Part shown: positions 25,292-30,803 of the stretch, in pieces
Numbering within the stretch: position 1 is the first letter of the stretch
Layout: the number at the start of each line of letters is the position of its first letter
Assembly: GCA_009773475.1 (NCBI GenBank)
Contig: WSXV01000001.1
Span: 496,001-560,000 of the forward strand
DNA: 64,000 bases
Direction of reading: 5' to 3'
From: Desulfobulbaceae bacterium
GTDB taxonomy: Bacteria > Desulfobacterota > Desulfobulbia > Desulfobulbales > Desulfocapsaceae
Position numbers and translations under genes: made by a program
Notes under the pieces: generated by a model
What the model was told of the DNA's origin: nothing
Seen by the model: the letters and a program-made list of their open reading frames with translations, nothing else
Database searches by the model: none

Positions 25292-26146
25292 CTATTGCAG
25301 AGAGAGCAGATAGGTGCGCAAGTTCATTGCCCGGTCATGCAGGCCCAGTTTACGGCGCAGGTTCTTTCGATGGAAGCTGATGGTGTCCACCGATACCCGG
25401 AGTACATCGGCAATCTCCTGACTGCTTTTCCCCTGGCGAACCAGGGAGGCCACCTCTACCTCCTGGGCGGTGAGCAGAAGCTGGATGGACGAGAGGCGAT
25501 TGAGGAAGGGGCTGACGATGTCATGGAGGTGGGATTCCACTATGTCGATCAGGGTTTGCTCACGACCTCCCTGCAGGGATTTTTTCAACCTCTCCACATA
25601 GGGCAGCACCAACTCATGGATATTGGCTATCATCCTCTGTTCCAGGTCTCTCAGGTCGCGGTCACGGTGTTCTAATAGTACCTTGAGCGCCACATTCATC
25701 TCCTCCAACTGCTCGCTTTTGTTTCGGATTTCTTGTTCGTTCTTTTGTAATTTCTCCTGTGCCAGGATGATGGGGCTTATGTCCTCATGGACAATAATGA
25801 TCCGGTGCACATCCTTTGCGAGATAGGGCAGAATACGAAGAGTAAACCACCTGCGTTTGGTGGGGGAATGACAGGGGTACTGGGTCACAAATTCCAGCAG
25901 CTCGCCCTGGAGTACCTTGCGGATGCCTAAAGCGACAATGTCTCCTTCCCGCTCTCCTGCCTCCCGTGCGGTATCGCAGATGGAAAGATAGTTGATTCCG
26001 ATACAGTCTGTTTTTCCCTGCATCCCGTTTTCCGCAGCGTAACCTTGCCAGGCTCGATTGGTCTCGATGATTACCCCTTGATTGTCAAGGACTGCCACAT
26101 GGGCGGAGAGAGAATTGACAATGACTTCATACATATTGCTGTCCAT
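25292..26146 (-). CDS. PAS-domain LuxR-type transcriptional regulator
   Basis: 284 residues. An N-terminal PAS domain (about 1-125; VAVLDNQGVIIETNRAW ... VHEDISPI) is followed by a coiled coil (about 130-170), a helical linker and a C-terminal LuxR/GerE helix-turn-helix (LTAQEVEVASLVRQGKSS through RKNLRRKLGL, about 228-273). It has no membrane segment or receiver domain, so it is a one-component cytoplasmic sensor. The ligand or cofactor of the PAS domain is unknown. A near-perfect AAGGAGG ribosome site sits 5-11 nt before the ATG. A 30-bp dyad overlaps the leader immediately upstream. It is divergent from the tandem small genes, suggesting it controls them. Confidence 0.92.
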   Translation of the reverse strand: MDSNMYEVIVNSLSAHVAVLDNQGVIIETNRAWQGYAAENGMQGKTDCIGINYLSICDTAREAGEREGDIVALGIRKVLQGELLEFVTQYPCHSPTKRRWFTLRILPYLAKDVHRIIIVHEDISPIILAQEKLQKNEQEIRNKSEQLEEMNVALKVLLEHRDRDLRDLEQRMIANIHELVLPYVERLKKSLQGGREQTLIDIVESHLHDIVSPFLNRLSSIQLLLTAQEVEVASLVRQGKSSQEIADVLRVSVDTISFHRKNLRRKLGLHDRAMNLRTYLLSLQ

Positions 26147-26157
26147 GGGAAACCTCC

Positions 26158-26187
26158 TTATAATGGTAGCTTATGTTACCATTATAA
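26158..26187. promoter_or_regulatory. Perfect dyad, candidate operator of the PAS-LuxR regulator
   Basis: Arms TTATAATGGTA (26158-26168) and TACCATTATAA (26177-26187), 11 bp each, are perfectly symmetric around an 8-bp spacer. It lies just upstream of the PAS-LuxR ribosome site and 17 bp upstream of a -35 box for the small genes. If transcription starts near 26239, it is centred about 66 bp upstream, a common activator position. Role inferred. Confidence 0.7.
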
Positions 26188-26203
26188 CCTTATTTTACCA
26201 GTA

Positions 26204-26232
26204 TTGTTTTTCGATATTGAAACAACTATTAT
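26204..26232 (+). promoter_or_regulatory. Sigma-70-type promoter for the tandem small genes
   Basis: TTGTTT (26204-26209), a 17-bp spacer and TATTAT (26227-26232), placed 47 bp before the first small ORF. Spacing is ideal and both boxes are near consensus. The dyad at 26158-26187 is immediately upstream. Confidence 0.6.
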
Positions 26233-26279
26233 TAAATCAAAGGAAAAAAAAGACCAAAAACTTGACAACTGAGGACATT

Positions 26280-26456
26280 ATGAGAGACGATTTAAAAGGT
26301 GAATATGGTGATATGGTATGGGTACGGGACAAGGACGGCAAAGAGTATGCCTGCTCCATAGATGCCCTGAAGGGAAAAATCAAAACCAAGGAAGAGATGT
26401 CGGAGGCAGAGTTATCCGGTTGCACCGATCTCAGCACTGTGATTGGTGATTGGTAG
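26280..26456 (+). CDS. Small Cys-containing protein, tandem copy 1
   Basis: 58 residues, starting MRDDLKGEYGDMVWVRDKDG. All three copies share the core YGDxVWVRDKDGKEYAC, then DALKGKIKTKEEMSEAEL, then GCTDLSTVIGxW. There are two conserved cysteines, about 28 residues apart, and no signal peptide or membrane helix. Ribosome site GAGGAC lies 5 nt before the ATG. I do not recognise the family. This copy differs most from the others at its N-terminus. Conservation of the frame while DNA diverges argues that it is a real gene. Confidence 0.8.
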   Translation: MRDDLKGEYGDMVWVRDKDGKEYACSIDALKGKIKTKEEMSEAELSGCTDLSTVIGDW

Positions 26457-26546
26457 GGTGATAAACAAGGACGTGAGGATGTTGTTTTGATGAAGTTGTC
26501 AGGTCAACTGGAATGGAAGTCTGAAAACTTAGCAATGGAGAATATC

Positions 26547-26720
26547 ATGAGTGATGAAAAAGCTGGATACGGTGACTTGGTATGGGTGCGGGATAAGGAC
26601 GGCAAGGAGTATGCATGCTCTATCGATGCCCTGAAGGGAAAGATCAAAACCAAGGAAGAGATGTCAGAGGCGGAGTTAGCCGGTTGTACCGATCTCAGTA
26701 CCGTGATTGGCAACTGGTAG
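26547..26720 (+). CDS. Small Cys-containing protein, tandem copy 2
   Basis: 57 residues beginning MSDEKAGYGDLVWVRDKDG and ending STVIGNW. It is nearly identical to copy 3 in protein, with one change (Ile versus Val after YACS), while many third codon positions differ. The longer frame upstream (from 26487) is not preferred, because the N-terminus, spacing and GGAGA ribosome site all match copy 3 at ATG 26547. Function unknown. Confidence 0.82.
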   Translation: MSDEKAGYGDLVWVRDKDGKEYACSIDALKGKIKTKEEMSEAELAGCTDLSTVIGNW

Positions 26721-26811
26721 GCTTGATGATCAAGGACGTGAGTATGTTGTTTTAAATTGCTTGTCAGGTCAACAGGAAAGGAAGTCTTAAAACTTAATAA
26801 GGGAGAAAATC

Positions 26812-26985
26812 ATGAGTGATGAAAAAGCTGGATACGGTGATTTGGTGTGGGTACGGGACAAGGACGGTAAAGAGTATGCTTGCTCCGTTGATGCCTTGAA
26901 AGGAAAGATTAAAACCAAAGAAGAGATGTCAGAGGCAGAATTGGCTGGTTGTACCGATCTCAGTACCGTGATTGGAAACTGGTAA
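26812..26985 (+). CDS. Small Cys-containing protein, tandem copy 3
   Basis: 57 residues, ATG 26812 to TAA 26985, with a strong GGGAGA ribosome site 6 nt upstream. Same core as copies 1 and 2, with cysteines in EYACS and AGCTD. Synonymous differences from copy 2 (for example GTG/GTA, GCC/GCT) outnumber the amino-acid change, which points to purifying selection. A dispersed repeat starts 10 nt after its stop. Function unknown; it could bind a metal or cofactor through the two cysteines. Confidence 0.82.
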   Translation: MSDEKAGYGDLVWVRDKDGKEYACSVDALKGKIKTKEEMSEAELAGCTDLSTVIGNW

Positions 26986-27037: not shown

Positions 27038-27067
27038 GTTTTCAGCAGCTGTTGCAAGGCAGTAAAA

Positions 27068-27163
27068 ATTGTTAGGGAAGCTCGGATTACACCGGGTTAA
27101 GAAGTCTTCAGACAGAAGACCCCTTGGCACCCGATCTGGATAATACCAGCGTGGGGAAACAAT
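27068..27163 (+). ncRNA. TPP-riboswitch-like aptamer with altered pyrimidine-sensing half
   Basis: The 3' half CACCCGATCTGGATAATACC followed by AGCGTGGGGAA closely matches the THI-box P4-P5 arm (consensus ..CCTGATCTGGNTAATNCCAGCG..GGGAA). ATTGTT (27068-27073) and AACAAT (27158-27163) form the closing P1. GGG (27075-27077) with CCC (27120-27122) can form P2. CTCGG / CCGGG encloses P3. The positions normally reading GGGGTGC and CTGAGA read AGGGAAGC (27074-27081) and TTAAGA (27097-27102). A short extra hairpin (GTCTTC/GAAGAC) follows. In known TPP aptamers that half contacts the pyrimidine. It is followed 14 nt later by an intrinsic terminator. Either degenerate or of changed specificity. Confidence 0.65.
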
Positions 27164-27177
27164 AACGAACCAAAGGT

Positions 27178-27212
27178 AAAGGCGCCGTCTGTCTGGACGG
27201 CGCCTTTTTTTT
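27178..27212 (+). terminator. Rho-independent terminator after the riboswitch-like element
   Basis: Stem GGCGCCGTC / GACGGCGCC, extendable by AAA/TTT, with loop TGTCTG and eight Ts. Very strong. Position after the aptamer suits transcription attenuation of the genes at 27332 and 27744, though no clear antiterminator pairing was found. Confidence 0.93.
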
Positions 27213-27331
27213 AGGAAAGTACCATGCGAATGACCCTGATTGTGCCGTTGCCTAATGGGCGGATTCTTAAAATTTAACAGGCTGACCAATGAGAAGGAAA
27301 TCTTCTGGTCGGCCGGGGAGAAGAGTGAGTC

Positions 27332-27727
27332 ATGAATCTTGAAGCATATTTTTCTGAACATACCGGTGTCGGGGTCTTGGCCACCAGCGATGCTGCCGGA
27401 GTGGTGGATACCGCCATTTACTCAAAACCCCATGTTGAAGGCATTGACACCATTGTCTTTATCATGCGTGATCGCCTCACCCACAAAAACCTGCAGGAAA
27501 ACGGCCATGCCAGTTATCTGTTTCTTGAAGATGGTCGGGGCTATATTGGTGCCCGCATGTTTTTGACCAAGGTTGATGAGAGTACGGATCAGGAGCTGAT
27601 TGCCTCCATGACCAGGCGCCATCTCAGTCCGGAGGAGGACAAGGCCAAGGGAGACAAATTTCTGGTTCGTTTCCGGGTGGGAAAAGTCCTGGCTCTGATC
27701 GGCGGCGAAGAGATCGCCCTTCAGTAA
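27332..27727 (+). CDS. Pyridoxamine 5'-phosphate oxidase-family split-barrel flavoprotein
   Basis: 131 residues forming one FMN-binding split-barrel domain: LATSDAAGVVDTAIYSKPHV, VFIMRDRLTHKNLQENGHASYLFLED and RFRVGKVLALIGGEE. These small PNPOx-like proteins bind FMN, F420 or haem; the cofactor here cannot be told. GGGAGAAG lies upstream of the ATG. It is 16 bp before the desaturase-like gene, so the two probably form an operon downstream of the aptamer and terminator. Confidence 0.85.
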   Translation: MNLEAYFSEHTGVGVLATSDAAGVVDTAIYSKPHVEGIDTIVFIMRDRLTHKNLQENGHASYLFLEDGRGYIGARMFLTKVDESTDQELIASMTRRHLSPEEDKAKGDKFLVRFRVGKVLALIGGEEIALQ

Positions 27728-27743
27728 GACTGATTGATGGTGT

Positions 27744-29243
27744 ATGGCAGAGACAACCAGCGACGAATCAGGGAGTGCTGTGGAAAAATATGATGTGATC
27801 ATTGTTGGCGGCGGCATCGGCGGTGTGGTAGCCGGCGGGCTTCTGGCTCGCAGCGGGGCAGGGGTGCTTCTGATTGAGCAGGGCGCCCATGTTGGAGGCT
27901 GTGCCGCCACCTTTTCCCATCGCGGCTATCGTTTTGATGCCGGTGCCACCATTGGCTGCGGATTCCATCGCGGCGGGCCCATGCATTGGCTGGCCGAGCA
28001 ACTTGATATCACTTGGCCCTTGCGTCCTCTGCCGGTGGCTTGGGAGTATTGTGATGGGATTTTGAACCTTCCCCTTGATCCCGCCAGAATCAGCCTGCTC
28101 CAGCAGTTTCCTGAAAGCAGGGGGTTTTGGCGGGAACAGGCGGAGCTCGCCGACAGCCTCTGGGATTTGTCGGAATGTCTGCTCGCCCTTTATGGTCAGG
28201 GGCGGATGCAGCAGTCCATCTCCCTTGGGGCCTGCCTCTTGCCCAGGATCAAGGATGTCCGGCTCCTACGGCTGGCCTTGATGTCGGTTGCGCAGTGGCT
28301 GAAGGGGCATGGGCTGGCCGACAATAAGGCCTTTTGCCGTTTCATCGACGCCCAGCTGCTGATCTCTGCCCAGACTACGGCGGGGAATTGTAACGCCCTC
28401 TTTGCAGCCCTCTCCCTGGATCTGCCGAGGCGGTCTCCCTGCGTCTTTGATGGCGGCATTGGGAGTGTTGCGGAGTTGATCCGGCAGGCCATGGTCAAAA
28501 ACGGCGGGCAGGTTCGACTGGGAGAAAAGGTGCAGTCGTTTACCCTCAAAGGGAAAAAGATCAGCGAGGTTGTGACCGAGAAAGGACGCTACCGGGCCAA
28601 AGAGGTGGTACTCAACGGTTCCAGTGTGACCCTGGCCTCGTTGCTGGGCAAACAACTTGCCGGTGTGGGAGGCGGGGACGTCTCCGGCCGTGCCGCCTGG
28701 AGCGCCTTTGTCCTTCATCTGGGGGTGGAAGACACCATTATGGCCGAGCGGCCAGGGGATCATCTGCAACTGCTTCGACCGGAAAGCATCGGTCTGGCCG
28801 AAGGCGACTCTCTCTTTCTCTCCGCCTCACCGTTGACCGATGCCACACGGGCGCCCATCGGCAAAAGGGCAATCACGCTCTCCACCCACACCAAGGTCGG
28901 CCCCTGGTGGCAGGCCTGGGGGCAGGGCAAGGAGGCGTATCGGAGTTTGAAAGCCGAGTACACCGAAGCGGCGCTCAATGTCGCCGAAGGCTACATTCCT
29001 GGGATGCGTCGAGGCATGGATCTCTGCCTGGCCGGTTCGCCGGTGACCTATGCCCGCTATACCGGCCGCCATCTCGGGCTTGTCGGCGGCTACACCCAGA
29101 CCAAATTGCAGGCCCCAAAGCAGAACCTGTTCGGCCTCAAAAACTGTACCCTGGTGGGAGACAACTCCTTCCCCGGGCAATCCGTGGCCGGGGTTACGGT
29201 GGGGGCGACCATGGCGGTGGACACCCTGCTCCGTCAACTCTAA
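27744..29243 (+). CDS. FAD-dependent oxidoreductase, CrtI/phytoene desaturase-like
   Basis: 499 residues. The N-terminal dinucleotide-binding motif is YDVIIVGGGIGGVVAGGLLARSG followed by LLIEQGAHVGGCAATF. The C-terminal block LVGDNSFPGQSVAGVTVGAT is typical of the phytoene dehydrogenase / carotenoid isomerase / retinol saturase clan. Substrate may be an isoprenoid but is not proven; no crtB or crtE is nearby. A GTG at 27780 (VEKYDV) with GGGAG upstream is an alternative start. It meets the pseudogene of a MerR/B12-type regulator tail to tail with overlapping stops. Confidence 0.85.
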   Translation: MAETTSDESGSAVEKYDVIIVGGGIGGVVAGGLLARSGAGVLLIEQGAHVGGCAATFSHRGYRFDAGATIGCGFHRGGPMHWLAEQLDITWPLRPLPVAWEYCDGILNLPLDPARISLLQQFPESRGFWREQAELADSLWDLSECLLALYGQGRMQQSISLGACLLPRIKDVRLLRLALMSVAQWLKGHGLADNKAFCRFIDAQLLISAQTTAGNCNALFAALSLDLPRRSPCVFDGGIGSVAELIRQAMVKNGGQVRLGEKVQSFTLKGKKISEVVTEKGRYRAKEVVLNGSSVTLASLLGKQLAGVGGGDVSGRAAWSAFVLHLGVEDTIMAERPGDHLQLLRPESIGLAEGDSLFLSASPLTDATRAPIGKRAITLSTHTKVGPWWQAWGQGKEAYRSLKAEYTEAALNVAEGYIPGMRRGMDLCLAGSPVTYARYTGRHLGLVGGYTQTKLQAPKQNLFGLKNCTLVGDNSFPGQSVAGVTVGATMAVDTLLRQL

Positions 29244-29598
29244 GAATAGGGGAGATCCAAACCACCATGAATCCCCTGGCCGAACTCCAGACGATTGTTG
29301 ACAGCGGCTAAGTCTGTGCGATATTTTTGAAACCGGACCGGATCGCTGACCGACAGCCAGATACTCTCCGGTCGTATCTGCCGGATACTCTCTTCCACCG
29401 CCGACAGAGGCATGGACGATCCCAGAAACACGACATTCCATCCCTGGCGGGCCAGGGCGTAGGCCACGGTGAGCAAGACGGTCCTGTTGCGCAAGCCTTA
29501 AGGAGCACGCTCTCTGCCCAGGGCCGGAGTAAGTGCGGCGAAATGCCGCACTCCCGGGCCTGGATTCCAATCTTGTAGACCTGAATGTCGGGGTTCAT
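29240..29598 (-). pseudogene. Remnant of MerR-type HTH / B12-binding regulator (CarH/LitR-like)
   Basis: Two broken pieces in different frames. The 5' piece, from ATG 29598, reads VYKIGIQARECGISPHLLRPW, the start of a MerR helix-turn-helix. The 3' piece (from about 29494 to TAG 29240) reads TVLLTVAYALARQGWNVVFLG followed by SSMPLSAVEESIRQIRPE, which looks like a cobalamin-binding (B12-type) Rossmann domain end. A full protein would need about 150 more residues between them, and a TAA lies in frame at the junction. The ATG overlaps the stop of the methyltransferase gene, so it was once operon-coupled. The assignment as CarH/LitR-like is inference. Confidence 0.75.
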
Positions 29599-30803
29599 CA
29601 GGCCTTTTTCCCCCAGGCCATGAAAACCGGATCACTCAACGGCAGCTCCTGGTGCGGATCATCCTCGGGCCTTGGCCACCCCCGTTTACTCAGACTGGCC
29701 AGCTCGGTAAATCCGCCGGTCTGGTGAAACATCTCCAGTACCATCCCCAATCGTTCAAATTCATGCAGCTCAGACCAGATCCTGATGGCCTTGGGGGGAA
29801 ACCAGCGATTGGAAAAGGCCAGGGCCAGCACCCCACCGGGAACCAGGACCCGCTTAATTTCAGCAAAGATGGCCAGCGGGTCGGTCAGATATTCCACCGA
29901 GGCGGTACAGATGACGGCATCCATGCTGTTGTCGGCCAGGGGGATGTCCGGCGTATGGTTGAGATCATGGAGCATTGTCGTGCTGGCCTTGTTGTTGGCG
30001 GCAAGCTCAACCTCGTTCATCCCGAGAACGGTGAGTGTCTGCAGTGGGAGCTGTTCCGGCAGGTGGGAATCCCAGCTGCCCATAAGATCAAGGACCCTGG
30101 CCCCTGGGTTGATAAGTCGTGCGTATTGATCGCGAATCGTAGCCCTGGCGGTGGAGTCCAGGTGCTGTACCATGCGGGGCCCTCCATAAAACAGCTGGTC
30201 GGGACCCTCGTCTTGCCGCTGCCTGCCTTCGGGGCGGAAAAAATCGGTGGCCATATTCTGGTAGCGGGCCTGCATGCCGGGACCATTCTCACAGATCAGG
30301 GCCAGCCAGTCCTCGCATCGCCCGCCCCGCTCCACCCCGGAGGTATGAATCTGGATGACTTTTGCGTTTACGGCAAGATCGTGTCCCGCCAGGGGATGAT
30401 TGAGATCAAAGAGGAGTTTTTCGTCCTGCCCAACACATCGGGCCGGGGCCGTTGAGACCTGAAAGACATTGCTGACCCCGTGCAGAAAACCCTGCGGATA
30501 AAAGCGGCCAGTATGGGGAGAGAGGATTTTTGCCGGACTTCCCGGGGCGTAAAATTGGTGGGGTCGGATTTTCACCAGTTTATTCTGAAAATACGGGGCA
30601 GGGACGACATCGGCCGGGACCCGGGCCTGTGCCGCTTCTCCCTCGCCTGTGTCGTTCAGGGCCGAGGCCAGCCCAGGGACAAAGCAGTCGCGCCACATGT
30701 TGACCTGATCCGTCCACAGGCTGTCCTGATGTCGCACCCCATTGCTCTGCCAGTCCAGCGTAAACTCAATGGTGGCTTTGCTGTAGCCGTTGATTTTTTC
30801 CAT
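29598..30803 (-). CDS. Fusion of FKBP/SlyD-like domain and class I SAM methyltransferase
   Basis: About 401 residues; ATG 30803 is set by GGAGGA 7 nt upstream. The first ~165 residues resemble an FKBP-type peptidyl-prolyl isomerase of the SlyD kind: FVPGLASAL, RFYPQGFLHGVSNVF and LLFDLNHPLAGHDLAVNAKV, the last being the classic NHPLAG strand. The C-terminal ~200 residues are a methyltransferase with motif I ARVLDLMGSWDSHLP, ending strand SMDAVICTASVEYLTDP and LVPGGVLALAFSNRW. The substrate is unknown. In other bacteria such methyltransferases occur in B12/light-regulated LitR gene clusters, which fits the regulator remnant beside it. Confidence 0.83.
   Translation of the reverse strand: MEKINGYSKATIEFTLDWQSNGVRHQDSLWTDQVNMWRDCFVPGLASALNDTGEGEAAQARVPADVVPAPYFQNKLVKIRPHQFYAPGSPAKILSPHTGRFYPQGFLHGVSNVFQVSTAPARCVGQDEKLLFDLNHPLAGHDLAVNAKVIQIHTSGVERGGRCEDWLALICENGPGMQARYQNMATDFFRPEGRQRQDEGPDQLFYGGPRMVQHLDSTARATIRDQYARLINPGARVLDLMGSWDSHLPEQLPLQTLTVLGMNEVELAANNKASTTMLHDLNHTPDIPLADNSMDAVICTASVEYLTDPLAIFAEIKRVLVPGGVLALAFSNRWFPPKAIRIWSELHEFERLGMVLEMFHQTGGFTELASLSKRGWPRPEDDPHQELPLSDPVFMAWGKKA

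Follow-up and report, generated by a model that had tools for sequence, protein, structure and literature searches.

The three tandem small-protein genes in the window (the whole 64,000-nt stretch of Desulfobulbaceae DNA analysed here) probably form an operon of photo-oxidative-stress effectors, made in three copies under the control of a divergently encoded PAS-LuxR activator. The functional information lies in this regulator and its operator, neither of which had been seen in the initial annotation of the array.

All three genes lie on the + strand and have good Shine-Dalgarno sequences. Copy 1 (26280..26456, 58 aa) is matched by the family HMM and is orthologous to copy 1 in the relatives G009 and G004. 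Copy 2 (26547..26720, 57 aa) starts at ATG 26547 and not at the upstream TTG 26487 given in the mechanical ORF list, and copy 3 (26812..26985, 57 aa) is supported by homology and by its substitution pattern. A single residue separates copies 2 and 3 although 18 of 31 synonymous sites have changed (dS 1.1, dN 0.008, dN/dS 0.008), as expected from the earlier claim that near-invariant proteins with differing codons are under selection. An orthologous triplet is present in the nearest relative, G009, with dN/dS between the species at or near zero. Across the window copies and this triplet dN/dS was approximately 0.00-0.05 in nearly all pairs, far from the value near one that the initial annotation had set against its own reading; the exception, N1-N2 (0.25), results from two substitutions only. 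The small protein is thus under strong purifying selection. The homology search that had also been proposed found homologues in 37 of 97 relatives (protein searches), and a profile search added distant homologues in 29 of 395 genomes sampled from the phylum. The small size of the ORFs and the lack of a curated family could suggest spurious ORFs or a non-coding repeat, but the near-zero dN/dS, ribosome-binding sites and homologues already contradict this, and we consider its chance practically nil. The array of three copies of an unrecognised protein of about 58 residues is therefore real and lies where it had first been placed.

The array is covered by a 265-nt repeat family with a spacing of 264/265 nt, unit 3 being 86% and unit 1 65% identical to unit 2. 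Duplication of whole 265-bp leader-plus-gene units, as first proposed, holds for copies 2 and 3, whose leaders are 82% identical over 80 nt. It does not extend to copy 1, where the 5' region is only 45-50% identical to these leaders because it is the promoter/operator region of the whole array. Copy 1 had also been called an older relative. It is indeed a distinct lineage, whose N-terminal differences recur in the first copy of relatives. Synonymous distances, however, do not clearly place it before the split of copies 2 and 3 (dS 0.87 for copies 1 and 2, 1.10 for copies 2 and 3). The G009 triplet (L034 5734-6435) is near-identical in DNA (dS 0.03-0.14), unlike the window copies, between which up to two thirds of the synonymous sites have changed. 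The G009 copies have been homogenised, either by gene conversion or by recent re-amplification. A need for dosage, as originally suggested, may lie behind the amplification. Multiple or tandem copies recur in independent genomes, with three in tandem in G036, two in G020, six copies in G041 and seven in G050.

The family is spread through the Desulfobulbales and, more distantly, the Desulfobacterota, its nearest named relatives being in MAGs of Desulfobulbaceae, Desulfocapsa, Desulfofustis and Desulfopila. The two cysteines on which the initial annotation had remarked, C24 and C47, do not vary across 56 diverse homologues. D16, G19 and the C-terminal W are likewise invariant within the near family, and distant relatives keep D16, G19, C24 and C47. 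Conservation in the near family is also among the highest at W13, Y22, C24, C47 and W57, residues that oxidise readily. Neither the small protein nor its distant relatives matched Pfam or NCBIfam above cut-off. A beta-hairpin (VWVRDKDGKEYAC) has weak local likeness to the SH3-like domains Tudor_2 and Myosin_VII_N, far below gathering cut-offs (Tudor_2, PF18104: 14.1-16.0 of 31.4 bits). The best match in a profile search of solved structures had an E-value of 0.37, two AF2 runs gave poor models (pLDDT 57 and 63.5), and a tblastn search of plasmids gave no match. A second uncharacterised protein of 73 aa (MKQCSLNHFTESLEPWL...), without a Pfam match, is encoded 3' of the small-protein gene in several gene islands (L081 8714-8947; L082 13516-13737; L138; L139).

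Upstream of copy 1 we found a 42-bp operator/promoter element (26165..26206, + strand; PWM score 41.7, E = 4.9e-6 in its own genome). It begins with the dyad GGTAGCTTATGTTACC (26165-26180), which lies within a longer inverted repeat (26158-26187), and abuts a sigma70-type promoter, TTGTTT-N17-TATTAT (26204..26232; -35 at 26204-26209, -10 at 26227-26232). In general the dyad GRTAGTnnnnACTAYC is followed by a third half-site, CTATC, and at the 3' end by the TTG of the -35 box, all in rigid spacing. The element precedes 22 genes of the family with matrix scores of 32.7-51.2, against at most 3.3 for other upstream regions. Many family members have no element within 220 bp of their 5' end; some of these are internal tandem copies and some may sit behind other promoters. 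Copies 2 and 3 of the window have no element, hence the three copies are probably expressed as a single transcript. In 60 of 71 sites detected family-wide, a -10 box (TAnnnT) follows 17 bp beyond the -35 box (offset 22/23). The model held no base downstream of the TTG, leaving the -10 outside its training; its emergence at a fixed spacing marks the element as an activator site immediately next to a promoter of sigma70 type.

These 71 distinct sites came from scanning 93 family-level genomes, 41 of which contained the element; a reversed-matrix control gave none. The commonest target was the small protein itself (41 sites), a result that is partly circular as the model was trained on small-protein promoters, whereas the other targets and the -10 box are independent of the training. 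The element also preceded DUF3833 (12 sites), PNPOx-like genes (8) and fasciclin genes (4). Single sites lay ahead of genes for UvdE (a UV endonuclease), BLUF, DUF2878, an ADP-ribosylglycohydrolase and a methyltransferase, as confirmed with Pfam; three sites had no assigned target and one was at a contig end. The DUF3833 operons contain chalcone-isomerase-like, SnoaL-like and SDR genes, or DUF1365-CMAS-DUF2878. The array thus very likely belongs to a regulon defined by the element.

The genome of the window has a weaker second element (G000:C21:31434), with a matrix score of 18.3 against 11.5 for the next best over 46 strands of about 20 kb. In this genome the strict covariance model recovered the site of the array alone; the second site came to light only in the matrix scan. 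It precedes a small ORF, the genome's only photolyase gene and an SDR gene. DUF1365 was not found in this genome, which is 91% complete, and its response is therefore reduced. A third uncharacterised protein, of about 85 aa (NWTGR..VxDTIITATIxALE), is encoded directly 3' of the element, ahead of the photolyase gene here (G000:C21:31434-33465; L214 8935-10966) and ahead of a PNPOx-like gene in two relatives (L154; L155).

Divergent from the array is a gene for a 284-aa protein (25292..26146, - strand) with Pfam matches to PAS_4 (27.0 bits) and GerE (52.4 bits), and none to a receiver domain. The protein is thus a LuxR/NarL-type one-component regulator with a PAS sensor, in which NYLxxC and YPCHSP cysteines recur. 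Full-length orthologs are present in 41 of the 93 family genomes and their distribution follows that of the element: 37 genomes have both, 48 neither, four have the element without a full-length ortholog and four the reverse (Fisher p = 6e-17). Co-occurrence of the regulator with the small protein was also significant (p = 3e-7). The two genes adjoin in many loci of several genera. A PAS-LuxR or PAS-sigma54 activator gene lies immediately 5' of some distant small-protein relatives; in one of these loci (L093 8243-9748) the fusion partner of a similar PAS domain is a sigma54 activator and not a LuxR HTH. Cobalamin riboswitches are found near the PAS-LuxR gene in two genomes of one genus (L155 55-251; L128 2544-2740).

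The islands around small-protein loci in relatives carry genes for photolyase, RudS (TudS-DUF1722), lipocalin, CMAS, DUF1365, amine oxidase and DUF2878, including homologues of the furan-fatty-acid enzymes UfaM, UfaO and UfaD. DUF1365 is UfaO; in the response to singlet oxygen, UfaO, UfaD and UfaM jointly produce furan fatty acids (PMC7380195). The fullest example is in G048 (L082), where lipocalin, photolyase, TudS-DUF1722, a glutaredoxin-like protein, DUF2878, CMAS, DUF1365 and amine oxidase are joined by DUF2177, DUF1295, an FAD oxidoreductase, PNPOx and three small-protein genes adjoining the divergent regulator. Marker genes lay within 20 kb of 8 of 12 near loci and 11 of 28 distant-relative loci, compared with none of the 20 loci in a small control set. 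In the window the array is followed by genes for a PNPOx-like flavin-fold protein (27332..27727, +; PNPOx_N sub-threshold at 24.3 of 28.1 bits) and an FAD-dependent oxidoreductase of the amine-oxidase/phytoene-desaturase type (27744..29243, +; Pfam), which has orthologs in islands L080, L081 and L082. In G005 the ortholog of the PNPOx-like gene is preceded by an operator of its own, and in G008 and G012 the ortholog is located downstream of one.

The window also bears traces of gene loss. A TPP riboswitch with terminator is followed only by a 17-codon remnant (MRMTLIVPLPNGRILKI; 27064-27277), where G009 has an intact thiC-like gene (L034 6681-7970). Having lost its gene, the riboswitch is an orphan that now lies 5' of the PNPOx-like gene. 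We rejected it as a regulator of the array, as it lies downstream of copy 3 and precedes thiC in G009. At 29240-29600 (-) a MerR-B12 gene has been broken by deletion, and of the adjoining membrane-protein gene, with its start at 29267, only 14 codons are left.

In the mechanism that we propose, the PAS domain would sense a consequence of light and oxygen, such as singlet oxygen, redox state or a photoproduct. Adjacency and co-occurrence suggest that the LuxR domain binds the dyad just 5' of the -35 box to activate the sigma70 promoter. One polycistronic message would then yield the three small proteins in quantity. Their two cysteines would do the work, most likely in a cytoplasmic thiol redox protein or a sacrificial scavenger that shields other proteins while the cell is briefly exposed to light and oxygen. 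This cysteine-based protective role, read from residue conservation, is put forward tentatively. The stress, by comparison, is quite likely photo-oxidative rather than a general oxygen stress. An operon for general oxygen or redox stress, with light incidental, would suit hosts related to anaerobic sulfur bacteria, and DUF1365/UfaO chemistry requires O2 (PMC7380195), but photolyase, UV endonuclease, BLUF, RudS and MerR-B12 point specifically to light or UV, which makes this alternative unlikely.

The constant linkage of small protein and regulator, seen even where PAS-LuxR or PAS-sigma54 activators lie directly 5' of distant relatives, could instead mean that the small protein binds PAS-LuxR or another component of the response, serving as a regulatory partner in feedback or in relaying a signal, with no protective action of its own. 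With three to seven copies per genome, tandem amplification and many copies far from the regulator, the protein looks more like an output, and we regard a partner role as improbable. Still less probable is a carrier of a metal (Zn or Fe) or cofactor whose site is formed jointly by two subunits. It would be compatible with the invariant cysteine pair and the conserved acidic residues, but there are only two thiol ligands, no conserved histidine and a variable cysteine spacing in the alignment, and no metal-handling gene is among the identified operator targets. From the conserved residues, two thiols without other conserved ligands seem to fit a redox or sacrificial role better. Of the two guesses made in the initial annotation, the metal or cofactor carrier is thus disfavoured, a mononuclear site in a monomer being unlikely, and the stress protein is the better.

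Protective effectors under PAS-LuxR control, our preferred reading, would assign an unannotated protein family of the Desulfobacterota to a functional class and to a regulon open to testing. On this reading, bacteria that reduce sulfate or disproportionate sulfur are predicted to have a dedicated programme against light and singlet oxygen, served by a regulator and a DNA site of its own. These sulfur bacteria are usually regarded as anaerobes. If true, the prediction would bear on their life in illuminated sediments and mats, a habitat suggested by what some relatives are called (the pink-berry Desulfofustis PB-SRB1, for example). A bolder proposal, which we consider doubtful, is that PAS-LuxR is a third kind of bacterial photo-oxidative-stress control that directly senses light-derived damage in these bacteria, and that amplified arrays supply its main output, two-cysteine proteins of a new class that quench singlet oxygen or act in redox chemistry. 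The literature searched gave no description of the PAS-LuxR regulator, the promoter element or the small protein.

Among known light-linked proteins, those of the DUF2256 type are also tiny, cysteine-bearing and linked to photolyase operons, but have four cysteines in zinc-finger spacing, whereas the array protein has two, 23 residues apart. The RpoE-ChrR (ECF11) system of Rhodobacter, Caulobacter and Vibrio shares the effectors CMAS/UfaM, DUF1365/UfaO, amine oxidase/UfaD and photolyase (PMC7380195, PMC6852236, PMC5241685); furan-fatty-acid and photorepair genes occur together in the islands of relatives, and this genome has photolyase only. It differs in its promoter, as the sigma70-type -35/-10 boxes and upstream dyad found here are not the sigmaE motif TGATC-N18-CGTAT (by reading, there is no TGATC in 26160-26280), and in its targets, the commonest here being an unannotated two-cysteine protein. 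The anti-sigma factor ChrR (TIGR02451) was over cut-off in none of the 93 genomes, in a search that detected it in the Caulobacter control. LitR/CarH (MerR-B12) of Pseudomonas likewise has similar targets, namely phrB, ufaM, SDR, FAD oxidoreductase and RudS, and LitR controls light operons holding RudS and photolyase (PMC9758184, PMC11417400), but the element described here co-occurs with a PAS-LuxR protein. In Vibrio the blue-light response is controlled by ChrR and a MerR protein (PMC5241685). An intact regulator with MerR HTH and B12-binding domains is absent from the window's island, which has the remnant only, and present in that of G009 (LitR/CarH-like; L034 10423-11400). With the same effectors, but ChrR absent from the 93 genomes and MerR-B12 intact only in the relative, we therefore assign the array to a photo-oxidative-stress regulon whose type of regulation differs, outside the ChrR and LitR systems.
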